Assembly: GCA_023251095.1 (NCBI GenBank)
Contig: JAHEZL010000001.1
Location: 195,871 to 259,870 of the forward strand
Source: Flavobacteriales bacterium
GTDB taxonomy: Bacteria > Bacteroidota > Bacteroidia > Flavobacteriales_C > GCA-002722245
DNA length: 64,000 nt
Direction of reading: 5' to 3'
The position numbers were made by a program, and so were the translations under genes. Shown piece after piece: positions 2,684 to 62,343 of the stretch (positions are counted from its first letter, which is position 1; every line of letters begins with the position of its first letter). The notes beneath the pieces are model-generated. The model saw nothing but the letters and a program-made list of their open reading frames with translations. It made no database searches and was not told where the DNA came from.

Positions 2684-3667
2684 CTATATCTTAATTATTT
2701 TACTGCTGAATACCACTGCATTGCTATTTGAAAGCTGAACGGTATAACTTCCCGCTGCTAATCCCGAGATGGAAATTTGCGCCTTTGAAGCGCCTCCAGG
2801 CAAAACTTCAACATGAACCAATTCGCCCAACAAATTGTAAATGTTAATTGTTTTGATGCCCTGAACATCGTCGAAAACCACCGCATCTGTTGCAGGATTT
2901 GGATATATACTTACCTTTCTTACCGTTTCGTAATCGGCAATATCGGTACTTAAACAAGGGGAGAAATTAGAAGTTCCCTGAAATGTTTTATTCACTCCAC
3001 TGGCTATTTCCACACTACTAACCACAACCTGCTGATTGAAAACATCTGTAATGCGAATCTGGGTATTACCGGGAATACTGATGGCCGTTGCATTCACCCA
3101 CCCATTGTCCATACCTCTGGTCATATTTACCCATTTAGATGTATAAGTATCGTAAATCTCTACTTTATTAATCTTGTTTTTGTGTTTGGCAATAATCACT
3201 TTCGCATACCATTGATTAGATCCCTGAGTAGTGATATTTAACGGAGTAGTACTCCACGGACAAGCTACTTCATGCCAATCCATCTTTGCCCGACCAATAC
3301 CCAAATCACCAAAAATGGCAAGAAAGGCCTGATTACTCAAATCGATATCACCAACCAAACACTCAGGACATTTATCCACAATTTCAATAATCTGGGTTCC
3401 CTTTGTTCCGGCTTTACCGGTGAGCTCTACACAGGTGCCGCAATAATCAGCAGTTGCATACTGAGTGTTGTTCATTGCACCGTAATAAGGTTTAATATTT
3501 GAATTGGTAAAAGAACAATTGAAGGTGGCAGTTGCAGATCCCGGAGCTTCCGCATCAATGTAAAAGGTGCCGTCTCCTGTGTAAACTGTAGCGTTGCAAG
3601 AAGATTGCGCTTTTAACAATACACTGCACAATAAAACGCATGAAAGAAGTAGTACTTGTTTTTTCAT
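2684..3667 (-). CDS. Secreted expansin-like protein with T9SS sorting domain
   Basis: A 327-residue protein with a signal peptide (MKKQVLLLSCVLLCSVLLKAQ). Residues 24-138 look like the double-psi beta-barrel of expansins: many cysteines, VDKCPECLVGDIDLSNQAF (97-115) and a terminal MDWHEV (129-134), which occupies the place of the expansin HFD motif and its conserved Asp. Residues about 140-232 fit the second, beta-sandwich carbohydrate-binding domain. From about 250 the VSIYPNPATDAVVF motif and beta-rich tail are a type A T9SS sorting signal, so the protein should be exported to or through the outer membrane. Bacterial expansins loosen cellulose-containing or related walls without hydrolysis. 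Substrate is unknown. Confidence in the expansin fold is high, in the physiological role moderate. Confidence 0.85.
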   Translation of the reverse strand: MKKQVLLLSCVLLCSVLLKAQSSCNATVYTGDGTFYIDAEAPGSATATFNCSFTNSNIKPYYGAMNNTQYATADYCGTCVELTGKAGTKGTQIIEIVDKCPECLVGDIDLSNQAFLAIFGDLGIGRAKMDWHEVACPWSTTPLNITTQGSNQWYAKVIIAKHKNKINKVEIYDTYTSKWVNMTRGMDNGWVNATAISIPGNTQIRITDVFNQQVVVSSVEIASGVNKTFQGTSNFSPCLSTDIADYETVRKVSIYPNPATDAVVFDDVQGIKTINIYNLLGELVHVEVLPGGASKAQISISGLAAGSYTVQLSNSNAVVFSSKIIKI

Positions 3668-3708
3668 AAGTTAATAGTTTTAAGTTTTTAAAATAGCCCC
3701 CGCTTTCA

Positions 3709-18242: not shown

Positions 18243-19694
18243 TTATTCCTTGACAAATTTCACTGTTTGAGCATTATTTTCATTTTCAAATCGCAATAAA
18301 TAGATTCCCTGAGGAAGTTTACTCACGTCGATTTGTGACTTAGCGCTTTGAATATTTGTTTCAAATAATGTCTGACTATTGATATTTAAAATTTTCACTT
18401 TAGAGGCCGAACCATCCGTTAATAGTGACAATACATCATATACAGGATTGGGATATAAAGAAATTTTATTATTTTCTTTCTCTGTAAAATCAATCACTAT
18501 AGTTTTAGAAAATTCAAAAGACTCATCTTTATCCACAATTTTCAAACGGCAATAATTATTTCCCGGCAGGGGATGTTCATCCGTAAATGAATAACTTAAA
18601 ACAGAAGAGCTGTTTCCTAATGCCTCTACTCTTCCGATAGATTCATAGTGAATTCCATCTGAAGAACGTTCAATTACATAATGATCAGAATTTATTTCGC
18701 TCGCTGTTTTCCATGAAAAATTGGTAACCCCATCATTTTTCAATCCTGTGAATGAAAGCAAATCGACCGGTAAAGTTCCTGTTGTTGTTGCAAAAGAAAA
18801 ATACTGCATAGTGTGTCCCGAAGTATTCACCTCACCTTGTACACCTACTGTAAATCCGGTACTGGTTATCCCGTTAATGGCGATTGTTGACGGACCGTTG
18901 ATAAAAGTATAAGAAGTGGTGGCAGGCATATCATAATCTTTAAACCACAAATTATTATTCAGATCGGTAATGTCTTTTACAATTACCCAATCAGGAGTAG
19001 CGCCATAATTAATAGTCGTCGCACTGCCATTTCCGGCGTATGTTCCGGTATATGCCGTTGATCCTTTAAAAGCAACATAATTGTATTTAGATCCATCATC
19101 AACACCTGATGAACCCGAAGCCGGTACGGTAAAACCTGTTGCCGTGTAACTACTCACACTTGCGGAGGAAGCATCTAAAGTAGACGCACTTGAAAAAGCA
19201 TCGGGTATATTGTCCCAACCATCCATTGAAATATTTCCGTAATCATTCCAGTCACCGGCTTCTCCTAATACCCATAACATTCCCGGACGATAGCCTAAAT
19301 TCATCGTTTGAGCACTGGTGGAGCCTGTATAAGTACCTACTGAGATGTCGCCATCAGCATCCAAAGCCACATAATAATAAATTATTCCGCTGGCATTGGC
19401 CGAACTACCGGCAGTAAAACCATCGGCATCAAAAGAATTAACATAATTGGAAGCCGGAACATTCGCGGAGGAAAGAACTTTTGATTTTCCTGCCGACATG
19501 GTAGAAGTAGAAATAAAGGATGAAGAGGCATTGGCCGGCTTAACTAAAACTGCTTCGGGTTGAAAACCTAAACCTGAAATTGCTTTGGATGCACCACCGT
19601 TACCGGTATAATGTCCAACAGCTTGTCGCAATGCATTGGCAGAAATTGATAAAAACATCATAGCATAAAAAATGCTGCATTTTAAATTAGTCAT
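18243..19694 (-). CDS. Large T9SS surface protein with repeated YTGNG modules (paralog 1)
   Basis: A 483-residue protein starting at MTNLKCSIFYAMMFLSISANA, a signal peptide; a longer frame to 19745 would run through the leader hairpin and is rejected. Residues about 25-310 hold three divergent copies of a module with GHYTGNGGASKAISGLGFQPEAVLVK, SVGTYTGST...LGYRPGMLWV and YTGTYAGNG...TPDWVIVK. I believe such modules are classed as DUF7483, seen in phage and surface proteins, but cannot check. Then comes the WKTASEINSDHYVIERSSDG segment usual before sorting domains, and a type A T9SS tail (ISLYPNPVYDVLSL). It is a tandem paralog of the next upstream gene. Likely surface-exposed; function unknown. 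Confidence 0.85.
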   Translation of the reverse strand: MTNLKCSIFYAMMFLSISANALRQAVGHYTGNGGASKAISGLGFQPEAVLVKPANASSSFISTSTMSAGKSKVLSSANVPASNYVNSFDADGFTAGSSANASGIIYYYVALDADGDISVGTYTGSTSAQTMNLGYRPGMLWVLGEAGDWNDYGNISMDGWDNIPDAFSSASTLDASSASVSSYTATGFTVPASGSSGVDDGSKYNYVAFKGSTAYTGTYAGNGSATTINYGATPDWVIVKDITDLNNNLWFKDYDMPATTSYTFINGPSTIAINGITSTGFTVGVQGEVNTSGHTMQYFSFATTTGTLPVDLLSFTGLKNDGVTNFSWKTASEINSDHYVIERSSDGIHYESIGRVEALGNSSSVLSYSFTDEHPLPGNNYCRLKIVDKDESFEFSKTIVIDFTEKENNKISLYPNPVYDVLSLLTDGSASKVKILNINSQTLFETNIQSAKSQIDVSKLPQGIYLLRFENENNAQTVKFVKE

Positions 19695-19721: not shown

Positions 19722-19741
19722 AGCAATTCCCCCGAACTGCT
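19722..19741 (-). promoter_or_regulatory. Leader hairpin with GGGG loop, paralog 1
   Basis: In the minus-strand RNA AGCAGTTC-GGGG-GAATTGCT forms an 8-bp stem with one G.U pair that would be A.C on the other strand. It lies 27 nt before the start codon. The same loop and position recur at 21453-21472, with a U-A for C-G exchange in the stem. Confidence 0.6.
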
Positions 19742-19772
19742 TCACTGTAATTTACAGTGAGCACTAAAAATA
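19742..19772 (-). promoter_or_regulatory. Possible -7 box and adjoining perfect palindrome, paralog 1
   Basis: A 9-bp perfect inverted repeat with one central base (TCACTGTAA-T-TTACAGTGA, 19742-19760) directly adjoins the leader hairpin. Just upstream on the minus strand is TATTTTTA (19765-19772), one mismatch from TAnnTTTG, without a clear TTG at -33. The palindrome would lie at the transcript start, as an operator might. Confidence 0.4.
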
Positions 19773-19896
19773 TGCTACTTAAGAAGGTAATAGGAAATAA
19801 GTTTGTTGTAAAATAACATTTCGAAAAGTAGTTTTTTTAATTCAAAAAACTGATTTTCAAATAGTTAAAACAAATAAAAAGAAGGAGGCAAAGGGA

Positions 19897-21423
19897 TTAA
19901 TTCTTACAGAATTTCAGCATTTCTGAAACTGCATTTTGTGTTACAATTCTTATTGAATAATATCCATCGGCTAAAGAAAGTAAATTCACATTTACTGTAT
20001 TGCTTCCTTTGCTTACTGCGAATTCAGAAAAATACACCAGTTGACCGATAGCATCATATACTTCTAAATGGGCTGTCCCGTTTTTCACCGCTTCAAAATT
20101 CACTTGTGTATTTTCTTTTGCCGGATTTGGAAATAAAGAAATATGAGACGTTGAATTTCCGCTGTTAAAATCAACTACTACGGTTTTAAAAAATGCATAG
20201 GATTCATCTTTATCTACTGCCTTTAAGCGATAATAATTATTTCCCGATAAAGGATGTTCGTCCGTAAATGAATAATTTAAAACAGAAAAACTTGAACCGG
20301 CAGCTTCCACTCTGCCAATGGCTTCATAGTGAATTCCGGCAGCGGAACGCTCTAATACATAATAATCAGAATTTATTTCACTGGCTGTTTTCCATAATAA
20401 TTTTATTCCATCCTCTTCTCTCACTCCTTTAAACGACAACAATTCAACGGGTAGGATATCTGCAGCATCCAGAGCAAACCATTCCGACGCACTGCCGAAA
20501 ATATTTGCATCACCTGAAGTTCCCAGATCAAAACCATCATTTCCTATTGCTGTTACCTGTAAAGTAGAAAGAGCTCCTCCGAAAGTATAGGAATCGGCAG
20601 CCGGAATAACTGTGGTTTTATACCAGCTGGTTGCACCCGGTGCGCTTCCCTGATCTTTGGCAAACACAAATACAGGATGACTACCAACCCCGGTAACAAT
20701 TGATCTTGCAGTAGCATTCCCTGTGTACGACCCTGTTTTTCCGTAATTGAATGCAGCATAATGATAAGTCACGCCAACGTTGGCATAATCAGTTACCGTG
20801 AAGGCTGTAGCAGTATATGAACTTAATAATTCCTTGTGCCAGTCGGCAGCACCACCCAACATATAAAAACTATTGGCTTCATTGTTTACCATATTCATTT
20901 GGGAATTGTGTGGCCAGGTAGCATCGGCACCCATAGCCCAAACCATTTTAGGTTTAAATCCAACTGTCACTGTTTGGTAAGAAGCGGAACCTACAAAAGT
21001 TCCTGTTGCAACAGCATTAGAAGAAAAAGCAGTATAGTAATAAGTAATCGTATTGGTATTGGCATCAGCCGAATTAGTGCCTACAGTAAAATATCCCGAC
21101 CCGAAAGAAGTAATATAATTTGAAACCAAAGCATTGGCACCATTCAGTTTTACTTTACCTCCCATAGTATTAGTAGCGATAAAACTTGTACCTGAACCGC
21201 TTTTTTGCACCAGCACACACACAGGCGTAAAGCCTAAACCCGTAACATTAAAAGCCGTTCCTCCATTTCCTGTATATGTTCCAACAGCAACGTTTTGAGC
21301 TGTTAAAGCATTGACAAACAAAACAAGGCTGAAAACAAAAACTAAAGATGATTTTTTTTGAAAATGAAAGGATATAAAAGTAGAATAACTTTTAAAACGT
21401 GGTTTTAAGTCAGTAGTGTGCAT
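19897..21423 (-). CDS. Large T9SS surface protein with repeated YTGNG modules (paralog 2)
   Basis: A 508-residue protein with a long polar N-terminus, then a hydrophobic signal core (SLVFVFSLVLFVNALTAQ). Three divergent modules follow: VGTYTGNGGTAFNVTGLGFTPVCVLVQ, ATGTFVGSASYQTVTVGFKPKMVWA and TGSYTGNATARSIVTGVGSHPVFVFA. Then WKTASEINSDYYVLERSAAG, nearly identical over 60 residues to paralog 1, and a type A sorting domain (ISLFPNPAKENTQV to SEMLKFCKN). It is transcribed from a strong promoter and precedes paralog 1 by 202 bp, so both may share some transcription. Tandem duplication is the simplest origin. Function is unknown; surface display is expected from the sorting signal. Confidence 0.86.
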   Translation of the reverse strand: MHTTDLKPRFKSYSTFISFHFQKKSSLVFVFSLVLFVNALTAQNVAVGTYTGNGGTAFNVTGLGFTPVCVLVQKSGSGTSFIATNTMGGKVKLNGANALVSNYITSFGSGYFTVGTNSADANTNTITYYYTAFSSNAVATGTFVGSASYQTVTVGFKPKMVWAMGADATWPHNSQMNMVNNEANSFYMLGGAADWHKELLSSYTATAFTVTDYANVGVTYHYAAFNYGKTGSYTGNATARSIVTGVGSHPVFVFAKDQGSAPGATSWYKTTVIPAADSYTFGGALSTLQVTAIGNDGFDLGTSGDANIFGSASEWFALDAADILPVELLSFKGVREEDGIKLLWKTASEINSDYYVLERSAAGIHYEAIGRVEAAGSSFSVLNYSFTDEHPLSGNNYYRLKAVDKDESYAFFKTVVVDFNSGNSTSHISLFPNPAKENTQVNFEAVKNGTAHLEVYDAIGQLVYFSEFAVSKGSNTVNVNLLSLADGYYSIRIVTQNAVSEMLKFCKN

Positions 21424-21452
21424 AGAAATGCGCCGTAATAGTAGTAAAAGCT

Positions 21453-21472
21453 AGTAATTCCCCCGAATTACT
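21453..21472 (-). promoter_or_regulatory. Leader hairpin with GGGG loop, paralog 2
   Basis: In the minus-strand RNA AGTAATTC-GGGG-GAATTACT is a perfect 8-bp stem with a GGGG loop, 29 nt before the start codon and about 25 nt after the predicted transcription start. Compared with paralog 1, stem position 3 changes C-G to U-A and position 5 G.U to A-U. Confidence 0.65.
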
Positions 21473-21499: not shown

Positions 21500-21530
21500 C
21501 GAATATAGACGATACCATCACGCTTGTCAA
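21500..21530 (-). promoter_or_regulatory. Strong promoter of paralog 2
   Basis: On the minus strand TTGACA is followed 17 nt later by TATATT. In Bacteroidota terms this is TTG, 20 nt, TATATTCG (one mismatch to TAnnTTTG). The predicted leader is about 70 nt and contains the GGGG hairpin. Confidence 0.65.
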
Positions 21531-60139: not shown

Positions 60140-61813
60140 TTATCTTTTTAAAAGTTTAATTTGCTGTGTTTCTGAATCGTGTGAAGCAAGCTGTGCAAAA
60201 TAATACCCACTGCTGTATTCAGCAAAAGATAGATCCAGTTTATTAATTCCCTTGCTTGCAGAAACAAATACTTTCTTCAGCTCATTTCCTATTTCATCAT
60301 ATAAAGTAATGGTATACTCACCTCCCATTTCCGAATTAAAAGAAAATCCGGTTTTTTCATCCACAAGATTAGGGAAAGCACTGAATTGCACAAAGCCCTT
60401 AACATTGTTTGAATGGATCGCTATAGTATGAAACAATTCATTGGCTCCGTCATAATCAAACTGACGCAAACGATAGTAGTTATTTCCGGGATTTGGTTTT
60501 GTATCGGTGAACACATAATTGATCAACTGATTGCTGTTTCCCGCTCCGTCAACTTGTCCGATAGCTTCAAAAGAAACCCCGTCGGATGAACGCTCAACAA
60601 CAAAATGACTGGAGTTAATTTCTGTTTCAGTTTGCCAGTAAAGTTTAACTGCGGCATCTTCTTTTTCGCCCGTGAAATAAGTGAGTTTCACCGGAAGTGT
60701 TGTACCGCCACTCAAGATAAAAAATTCAAAAGTACTGGTATTGGTATTTACCTCACCGTTCACTCCCACCGTAAAACCTGTTGCAGTTAGCTTTTTCACA
60801 CTTGAAACATCGGGACCTCCCGTAAATTTATAGGAAGTATCGGTGCCCATGGAGGAGGCTTTGAACCAGGTGTTCTGTCCGCCATTGAAATCTTTTACCA
60901 TCACAAAAGTAGGAGTAGTAGAAGTGGTAACTGCTTTATTGTTAACTCCTGTTCCTGTGTAGGAACCGGTTTGAGCATTCGATCCGGGTTTAAAAGCCAC
61001 ATAATTGTATTTCACTCCGTTGGCCGGACCGTCGTGGGTACCACGATTGCTAACGGCTCTGGTAGTAAATCCGGTAGCACTTAAATCACTGATGATTTTA
61101 TCTGAATTTGTTAAAACACTGCCCTGAGTGAAGTTGGCCATTTTATTGGAGTTCGCATTGTCAAAAGTAAATTGCGGATAACAAACCTCATCCCACTGGT
61201 TGGCGATTCCTTCACCAAAAACCCAAAGCATTTCCGGACGGTAGCCTAAAGTAATATTCACATCAAAAGCACTACAAACACCTAAGTCAGTCCAAATGGT
61301 ACTATTGATATCCGGACGGTTTGTTCCTGAATTAGAAGTGTGTCCTGTTTTATTATGATAAGTATTCGTTCCATAAGTCACCATTGCACCCGGATTATAA
61401 TAAGTGGCATTGGCCCATGCTGCAGAACCACAATTTACCGGAGTAAAACTTCCTGTTGCAATACTTGCATCAGCATCGTCCCAGGCCACAAAATAATACA
61501 CAGCGCCATTGGTATTGGAGGTAGATGAGTTCCCAACAGTAAAACCATCAGAATCAAAAGTATTGAGATAACCTGTTGCAGGAGGATCATTCGTGGTGAG
61601 TAATTTAGCATATCCGGTAGTCATAGATGCTGTAGCAATCCATGCGTCTTGCGTACTTGCTCCCTTCACCAAAACAACTTCGGGTTTAAATCCCAAACCC
61701 GTAACTGATTTTGAAGCAGCACCATTCCCTGTATATTTCCCCGAAATATAAATGGCATTGACTGTAGAAGAAATGAAAAGAAAAAAGAAAATAAGAAGAC
61801 TACCCTGTTTCAT
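60140..61813 (-). CDS. Large T9SS surface protein with repeated YTGNG modules (paralog 3)
   Basis: A 557-residue protein with signal peptide MKQGSLLIFFFLFISSTVNA. Three modules: SGKYTGNGAASKSVTGLGFKPEVVLVK, a second with LGYRPEMLWVFGEG, and a third with TGSYTGTGVNNKAVTTSTTPTFVMVK. Between module 1 and 2 (about 127-181, flanked by Cys128 and Cys180) is an insert, AAWANATYYNPGAMVTYGTNTYHNK to TIWTDLG, that resembles the chitin-binding CBM5/12 fold. Then WQTETEINSSHFVVERSSDG and a type A sorting tail (VDEKTGFSFNS to TQQIKLLKR). It is related to, but more divergent than, the tandem pair at 18.2-21.4 kb, and lies 40 kb away. Confidence 0.85.
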   Translation of the reverse strand: MKQGSLLIFFFLFISSTVNAIYISGKYTGNGAASKSVTGLGFKPEVVLVKGASTQDAWIATASMTTGYAKLLTTNDPPATGYLNTFDSDGFTVGNSSTSNTNGAVYYFVAWDDADASIATGSFTPVNCGSAAWANATYYNPGAMVTYGTNTYHNKTGHTSNSGTNRPDINSTIWTDLGVCSAFDVNITLGYRPEMLWVFGEGIANQWDEVCYPQFTFDNANSNKMANFTQGSVLTNSDKIISDLSATGFTTRAVSNRGTHDGPANGVKYNYVAFKPGSNAQTGSYTGTGVNNKAVTTSTTPTFVMVKDFNGGQNTWFKASSMGTDTSYKFTGGPDVSSVKKLTATGFTVGVNGEVNTNTSTFEFFILSGGTTLPVKLTYFTGEKEDAAVKLYWQTETEINSSHFVVERSSDGVSFEAIGQVDGAGNSNQLINYVFTDTKPNPGNNYYRLRQFDYDGANELFHTIAIHSNNVKGFVQFSAFPNLVDEKTGFSFNSEMGGEYTITLYDEIGNELKKVFVSASKGINKLDLSFAEYSSGYYFAQLASHDSETQQIKLLKR

Positions 61814-61842: not shown

Positions 61843-61861
61843 AGTTCCCCCCTAAGGAACT
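61843..61861 (-). promoter_or_regulatory. Leader hairpin with G-rich loop, paralog 3
   Basis: In the minus-strand RNA AGTTCC-TTAGGGG-GGAACT forms a 6-bp stem and 7-nt loop containing GGGG, 29 nt before the start codon. It starts a few nucleotides after the predicted transcription start, so it would cap the message's 5' end. Confidence 0.5.
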
Positions 61862-61997: not shown

Positions 61998-62002
61998 CTG
62001 CA

Positions 62003-62337
62003 GTACAAACTGCCTTATCGCCTTGTTGAAAGACACAGGGAGGAAAGTCCGGTCATCGCAGAGCACCATGCCTTGTGAAAACGAGGGCAAGGGATTTGCA
62101 AAAGTTCTTTGACGGAAAGTGTAACAGAAAATACCGCCCCGATTCGTCGGGGTAAGGGTGAAAAAGTGAGGTAAGAGCTCACTACTGACGGAAGTAATTC
62201 CGACTTTGTAAAAACCCCTTGGGATGAAAGCTCAAATAGGTTGGGGAGCTGCTCGCTCTTAACCCAACGGGTGGAGCGTATAGATAAATGATAGGGATCG
62301 GGCAACCGATACAGGATCCGGCTTACAGGTTTGTATG
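62003..62337 (+). ncRNA. rnpB: RNase P RNA component
   Basis: The conserved core of bacterial class A RNase P RNA is seen in order: GAGGAAAGTCCGG near the 5' end, ACAGAAAATACCGCC, GGTAAGGGTGAAA with GGTAAGAGCTCAC, AGATAAATGATAGGGATCGGG, and ATCCGGCTTACAG near the 3' end. TACAAAC (62004-62010) and GTTTGTA (62329-62335) close helix P1. It is the ribozyme that trims tRNA 5' ends with RnpA. A spurious 96-residue frame on the opposite strand was ignored. Ends are set by P1 and are accurate to a few bases. Confidence 0.97.
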
Positions 62338-62343
62338 AACGAA

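Follow-up and report, generated by a model that had tools for sequence, protein, structure and literature searches.

Two tandem genes for secreted proteins in a Flavobacteriales genome are each preceded, in the predicted mRNA, by a short hairpin with an identical GGGG loop, and the question raised by this locus is whether these hairpins constitute an element of the mRNA, a site recognized in the DNA, or a palindrome duplicated along with the genes. The hairpins were analyzed within the window (the whole stretch of DNA under study, 64,000 nucleotides), in the remainder of the genome and in related genomes. They are probably a minor, previously undescribed mRNA control element, rather than a product of chance.

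Hairpins in the window and in related genomes

The gene calls used here are simple ORF calls. Paralog 1 (P1, positions 18243 to 19694, minus strand) encodes a protein of 483 aa, with a DUF7483 and a type A sorting domain of the type-IX-secretion system (T9SS), while paralog 2 (P2, 19897 to 21423, minus strand) encodes 508 aa and also features a T9SS type A sorting domain; DUF7483, located at the front of the protein, is clear in P1 and weak in P2. The two genes are tandem T9SS cargo genes, 42% identical, and their ATGs, at 19694 and 21423, are backed by the aligned N-termini of orthologs. A third paralog, of 557 aa, is found at 60140 to 61813 (minus strand), and shares 43-47% identity with P1 over two stretches. 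No orthologs of P1 and P2 were found outside the genus among GTDB species. The window also contains a class A RNase P RNA gene, at 62002-62341 on the plus strand (187 bits).

In the P1 leader, the minus strand reads AGCAGTTC-GGGG-GAATTGCT at 19741-19722, corresponding in the RNA to AGCAGUUC-GGGG-GAAUUGCU, and forms a perfect 8-bp stem, 27 nt before the ATG. Similarly, in the P2 leader the minus strand reads AGTAATTC-GGGG-GAATTACT at 21472-21453, or AGUAAUUC-GGGG-GAAUUACU in the RNA, again with a perfect 8-bp stem, located 29 nt before the ATG. From P1 to P2, a C-G pair changes to U-A and a G·U pair, at another position, to A-U. The preliminary description had reported the two stems, their loops, distances and pair changes, and every detail was confirmed in the sequence. 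The compensatory changes, on which it had relied to argue for an RNA structure, are thus present, but they are weak evidence when taken alone, having about a 2% chance of occurring given three random substitutions. Since the P1 and P2 leaders can be aligned beyond the hairpin, the two hairpins do not represent independent inventions.

The sequence TTCGGGGGAA occurs in 6 copies in the 3.59-Mb genome, and only the P1 and P2 copies are leader hairpins. A second palindrome, CACTGTAAATTACAGTG, lies directly upstream of the GGGG hairpin in the P1 leader (19743 to 19759, minus strand), and is not found in the P2 leader; present in the genome as a single exact copy, it was rejected as a genome-wide site. 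A hairpin related to the P1 and P2 pair, which the preliminary description did not include, precedes the third paralog: this is AGUUCC-UUAGGGG-GGAACU, at 61843 to 61861 (minus strand), 29 nt before the ATG at 61813.

Orthologs, small in number, were available from congeneric freshwater Flavobacteriales MAGs, including nzgw151, LacPavin_0818_WC40_MAG_38_10 and CH-Oct18-48. The core of the hairpin is conserved between species, while the flanks drift. In the P2 ortholog of genome G004 the hairpin is kept almost letter for letter, as GTAATTC-GGGG-GAATTAC. The P1 ortholog of G002 (L020) features an 11-bp stem, containing three G·U pairs, in which the foot AGCA-UU is kept and the loop is GAAA; the ortholog of the third paralog in G003 (L023) has AGUUUC-GUAAGGG-GGAACU at the same place, with a C-G pair changed to U·G. 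An equivalent stem is absent from the P2 ortholog of G001 and from two relatives of the third paralog in G004, and GGG or GGGG is retained there at a similar distance. Stem and G-run are each retained in most relatives, not in all, and the GGGG loop is exchangeable rather than indispensable, because the P1 ortholog of G002 has GAAA in its place.

Because a good Bacteroidota promoter lies upstream, the P2 hairpin falls inside the predicted 5' UTR: the predicted promoter, at 21500 to 21530 on the minus strand, matches the Bacteroidota consensus with TTGACA (21530-21525) and TATATTCG (21507-21500), and the stem starts 27 nt downstream of the predicted -7 box. In G004, the P2 ortholog carries a TTGACA / TATCTTTG promoter and, in the third-paralog pair as in these two genes, promoter consensus places the hairpin between transcription start and AUG. 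For P1, no promoter was recognizable at the expected place.

Loop, G-run and distance from the start codon

Given the leaders which retain Gs and not the stem, it is conceivable, if rather doubtful, that the conserved feature is not the hairpin but a run of G4-G6 near the 5' end of the mRNA, 22-38 nt before the AUG, the hairpin being one way of keeping the run single-stranded. Such a run would be bound by a protein or by a C-rich small RNA, or would serve as an initially transcribed sequence. Intergenic matches to GGGGGAAYTR with a close downstream gene all start 32-41 nt before the ATG, and in several leaders the run is found only 3-9 nt after a -7-like box. A run of at least 4 Gs, at 22-38 nt, precedes 11 of 104 T9SS genes, 9 of 281 other secreted-like genes and 7 of the remaining 579; the windows neighboring this interval show no such difference between gene classes. 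However, regions not chosen for the motif give a modest effect (T9SS 5/85 vs 5/417, p ~0.016), C-runs are likewise somewhat enriched in secreted genes, and the G-run is missing from the P1 ortholog, as well as from 400 kb sampled in the sister genus, a sample with few T9SS genes. The enrichment of G-runs in T9SS leaders is suggestive only. As to its relation to the stem, the run sits in the loop in some leaders and not in others; within the window, the gene for an expansin-like T9SS protein, with its ATG at 3667, has a GGGGG run 29 nt upstream of that codon (3697 to 3701, minus strand), accompanied by only a weak hairpin. Reading the G-run as a Shine-Dalgarno-like signal was rejected, since neither AAGGAG nor AGGAGG shows enrichment at this distance from the start.

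A separate group of homologous leaders, belonging to beta-helix T9SS enzymes (L168:11130, L340:6045 and L340:17228), contains AAGGGG or AAAGGG in a possible extended hairpin. The arms of this hairpin change in step, and the 5' one, overlapping a -7-like box, may be untranscribed.

Coming back to the stem-loop itself, its association with the start codon was evaluated by counting tetraloop stems in genome samples, some of which were chosen around earlier hits, figures for the less biased subset being reported apart. The own genome, sampled over 855 kb, contains 7 stems of 7 bp or more closed by a GGGG tetraloop; three of the seven are intergenic, and each of these three precedes an ATG by 25-29 nt. 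The five congeneric genomes, over 2.05 Mb, yielded 15 such stems, 7 of them intergenic and 5 in leaders. All five leader copies cluster at 25-29 nt before the ATG. For comparison, stems with any tetraloop fall at 22-32 nt before an ATG in 36 of 6739 cases in the same 2.05 Mb, where GGGG is the most frequent of the 256 tetraloops at this distance. Two members are new and unrelated to the paralogs, namely TAATTTCAA-GGGG-TTGAAATTA, before a GH18 chitinase gene (L182:14600), and ATTTCCTA-GGGG-TAGGGAAT, before a gene for a 246-aa lipoprotein-like product in G003 (L341:10964).

These figures bear on the alternative that the hairpin has no function, a leader palindrome having been copied along with the tandem genes and having survived by chance, and the other copies being coincidences among many hairpins. 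The homology of the P1 and P2 leaders beyond the hairpin is in line with this, as are the compensatory pattern, to be expected by chance at the rate given above, and the small size of the GGGG excess, which amounts to 5 cases in 2.05 Mb. We nevertheless consider it unlikely, because the core is kept between species while the flanks drift, the leader copies cluster at one distance, and the excess persists when the P1 and P2 hairpins and the orthologous copy are left out (2 of 12 GGGG stems, against 0.46%; P ~0.0014).

Pairing in the RNA strand

Minimum free energies differ between the two strands. The P1 hairpin is predicted to fold with -9.2 kcal/mol in the sense strand and -4.0 in the antisense one, its G002 ortholog with -12.1 and -1.1, and the L341 hairpin with -6.5 and -2.8 kcal/mol. 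In these three and in L023, G·U pairs confer a clear gain in stability on the sense strand; the sense strand is favored only slightly in the P2, L182 and third-paralog hairpins. When entire leaders are compared to shuffled sequences, P1 reaches z = -4.98, a value which includes the second hairpin, while P2 (-1.5) and its ortholog (0.0) are unremarkable.

The possibility that the palindrome is a DNA operator, to which a transcription factor binds immediately after the promoter, may draw on the P2 and L182 copies, which are perfect DNA palindromes, readable by a dimer, and on the second DNA palindrome adjoining the hairpin in P1. It seems improbable all the same: the arms differ (GTAATTC, TTTCAA, TTCCTA, AGTTCC), so that no half-site is shared, the strands are not equivalent, the G·U pairs of P1, L020, L023 and L341 being valid in the sense only, the spacing from the promoter differs by about 5 nt between P2 orthologs, and no regulon of the same sequence exists in the genome. 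In contrast, RNA-specific pairing is retained through sequence change, in a small number of sequences. The preference for an RNA structure over a DNA operator expressed in the preliminary description is supported, both by the sense-strand stability conferred by G·U pairs and by a stem kept while its sequence drifts.

Candidate role, known elements and distribution

The reading we favor, to which we assign about an even chance, is that, in this genus, the 5' UTRs of a few mRNAs for secreted proteins contain an RNA stem-loop that acts in cis. Transcription would start upstream of the stem-loop, as promoter consensus indicates for P2 and its ortholog, and the nascent leader would fold into a stem of 6-11 bp, as suggested by pairing-preserving changes and by sense-strand stability. 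mRNAs of F. johnsoniae feature a low-structure zone from -20 to +20 (PMC6847099). The 3' foot of the stem, lying 25-29 nt before the AUG in most members, would fall just outside such an unstructured stretch, and the stem would thereby leave initiation unblocked. It might shield the leader, or the mRNA, from decay, or keep the leader open for the ribosome; its location suits a structure which shields or insulates the leader and does not interfere with initiation. In the genes having it, the apical GGGG, held single-stranded, could be a contact for an RNA-binding protein or a small RNA, and its repeated occurrence as a loop suggests, at the sequence level, recognition in some members.

Extending recognition to a genus-wide post-transcriptional regulon appears hardly probable. 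In this scheme, single-stranded GGGG would be recognized by a protein or small RNA some 25-37 nt ahead of the AUG, whether displayed in an apical loop or at the 5' terminus of the mRNA. Surface proteins exported by the T9SS and secreted enzymes that degrade polysaccharides (DUF7483, GH18 chitinase, expansin-like, beta-helix) would be co-controlled in this way.

Among known elements, the 5'-UTR stabilizers of the ompA type share with the stem-loop described here a short leader structure, located upstream of the ribosome site without overlapping it. The ompA hairpin is found at the very 5' end of the mRNA. In contrast, some 20-25 nt separate the P2 hairpin from the predicted start, and the recurrent GGGG loop and the fixed distance to the AUG are further differences; proximity of the stem to the 5' end, to within a few nt, was found only in the unrelated GH18 leader hairpins described below. 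CsrA/RsmA target hairpins are likewise stem-loops of the 5' UTR with a G-rich loop at the apex; this loop contains the entire motif ANGGA and usually overlies the SD. Here the loop is GGGG, or GAAA in L020, GGA straddles loop and stem, and the hairpin sits elsewhere than a Shine-Dalgarno, some 35 nt ahead of the AUG, so that membership in this class was rejected; to our knowledge, csrA is mostly absent in Bacteroidota. A terminator scan revealed no intrinsic terminator, with GC stem and U-tract, at the hairpin sites.

The hairpin fits a known kind of element, since flavobacterial transcriptomes show many structured 5' regions without known function: for Flavobacterium psychrophilum, 64 of them have been listed, along with the Flavo-1 motif (PMC9723704), and these are likewise flavobacterial leaders of unknown role. 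Covariance models of Rfam, including Flavo-1, gave no match in the leaders. As with the Flavobacteriales Shine-Dalgarno of the rpsU mRNA (PMC9976891), GGGG could in principle pair with the anti-SD, but its distance from the AUG is too large, and the anti-SD is reported to be sequestered in ribosomes of Bacteroidia. Shine-Dalgarno signals are not used in Bacteroidota, and little is known of what tunes their leaders. If its spacing from the AUG is indeed held constant across secreted-protein genes, the stem-loop would give experimental access to the way surface proteins are controlled after transcription.

The element is small and genus-restricted, and the statistics are modest. A general role in leaders of T9SS cargo genes, as envisaged in the preliminary description, is unsupported: as a class, these leaders are hardly more structured than shuffled sequences, and the search of relatives by a covariance model, which had been proposed as a check, produced no credible additional copies with this sequence. 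The model R1, built from the P1, P2 and G004 copies, recovered from five congeners the three known hairpins and weak matches; searched over 295 genomes of the class, it reported 8 genomes at E<=0.02, with about 6 false ones expected. No GGGG leader hairpin was found in the 400-kb sample of the sister genus (G006), and the hairpin appears to be restricted to this genus.

The weak R1 matches mostly correspond to terminators (AUCCCUCGAAGAAAUUCGGGGGAU followed by a U run), to coding sequence, and to stems that surround the start codon in the gene of a different secreted protein. A recurrent terminator, AUCCCUCGRAGAAAUUCGGGGGAU followed by a U run (L372, L377, L381 and L386, in G001 and G002), mimics the hairpin core TTCGGGGGA. 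In two orthologous secreted proteins (L379, G000:C8:40112, and L375, G003:C63:1797), codons 2-7 form AAAUUC-GGGG-GAAUUUU, directly behind the start codon, which this stem could hide.

A different hairpin, CCCUUUUR-CUACUA-YAAGAGGG, is found right after the -7 box in the leaders of GH18 chitinase orthologs (L188-L192; own copy at G000:C8:64040). Its loop is CUACUA in three of the five congeners and short in the other two, and paired changes suggest, as far as the aligned leaders go, a conserved 5'-terminal RNA hairpin. ACTACT / ACTACTA is also more frequent on the sense than on the antisense strand at up to 80 nt from starts (39 vs 9 occurrences, in samples L148-L187 and L289-L348); this enrichment is stronger in T9SS genes, and may reflect a feature of translation or of start sites.
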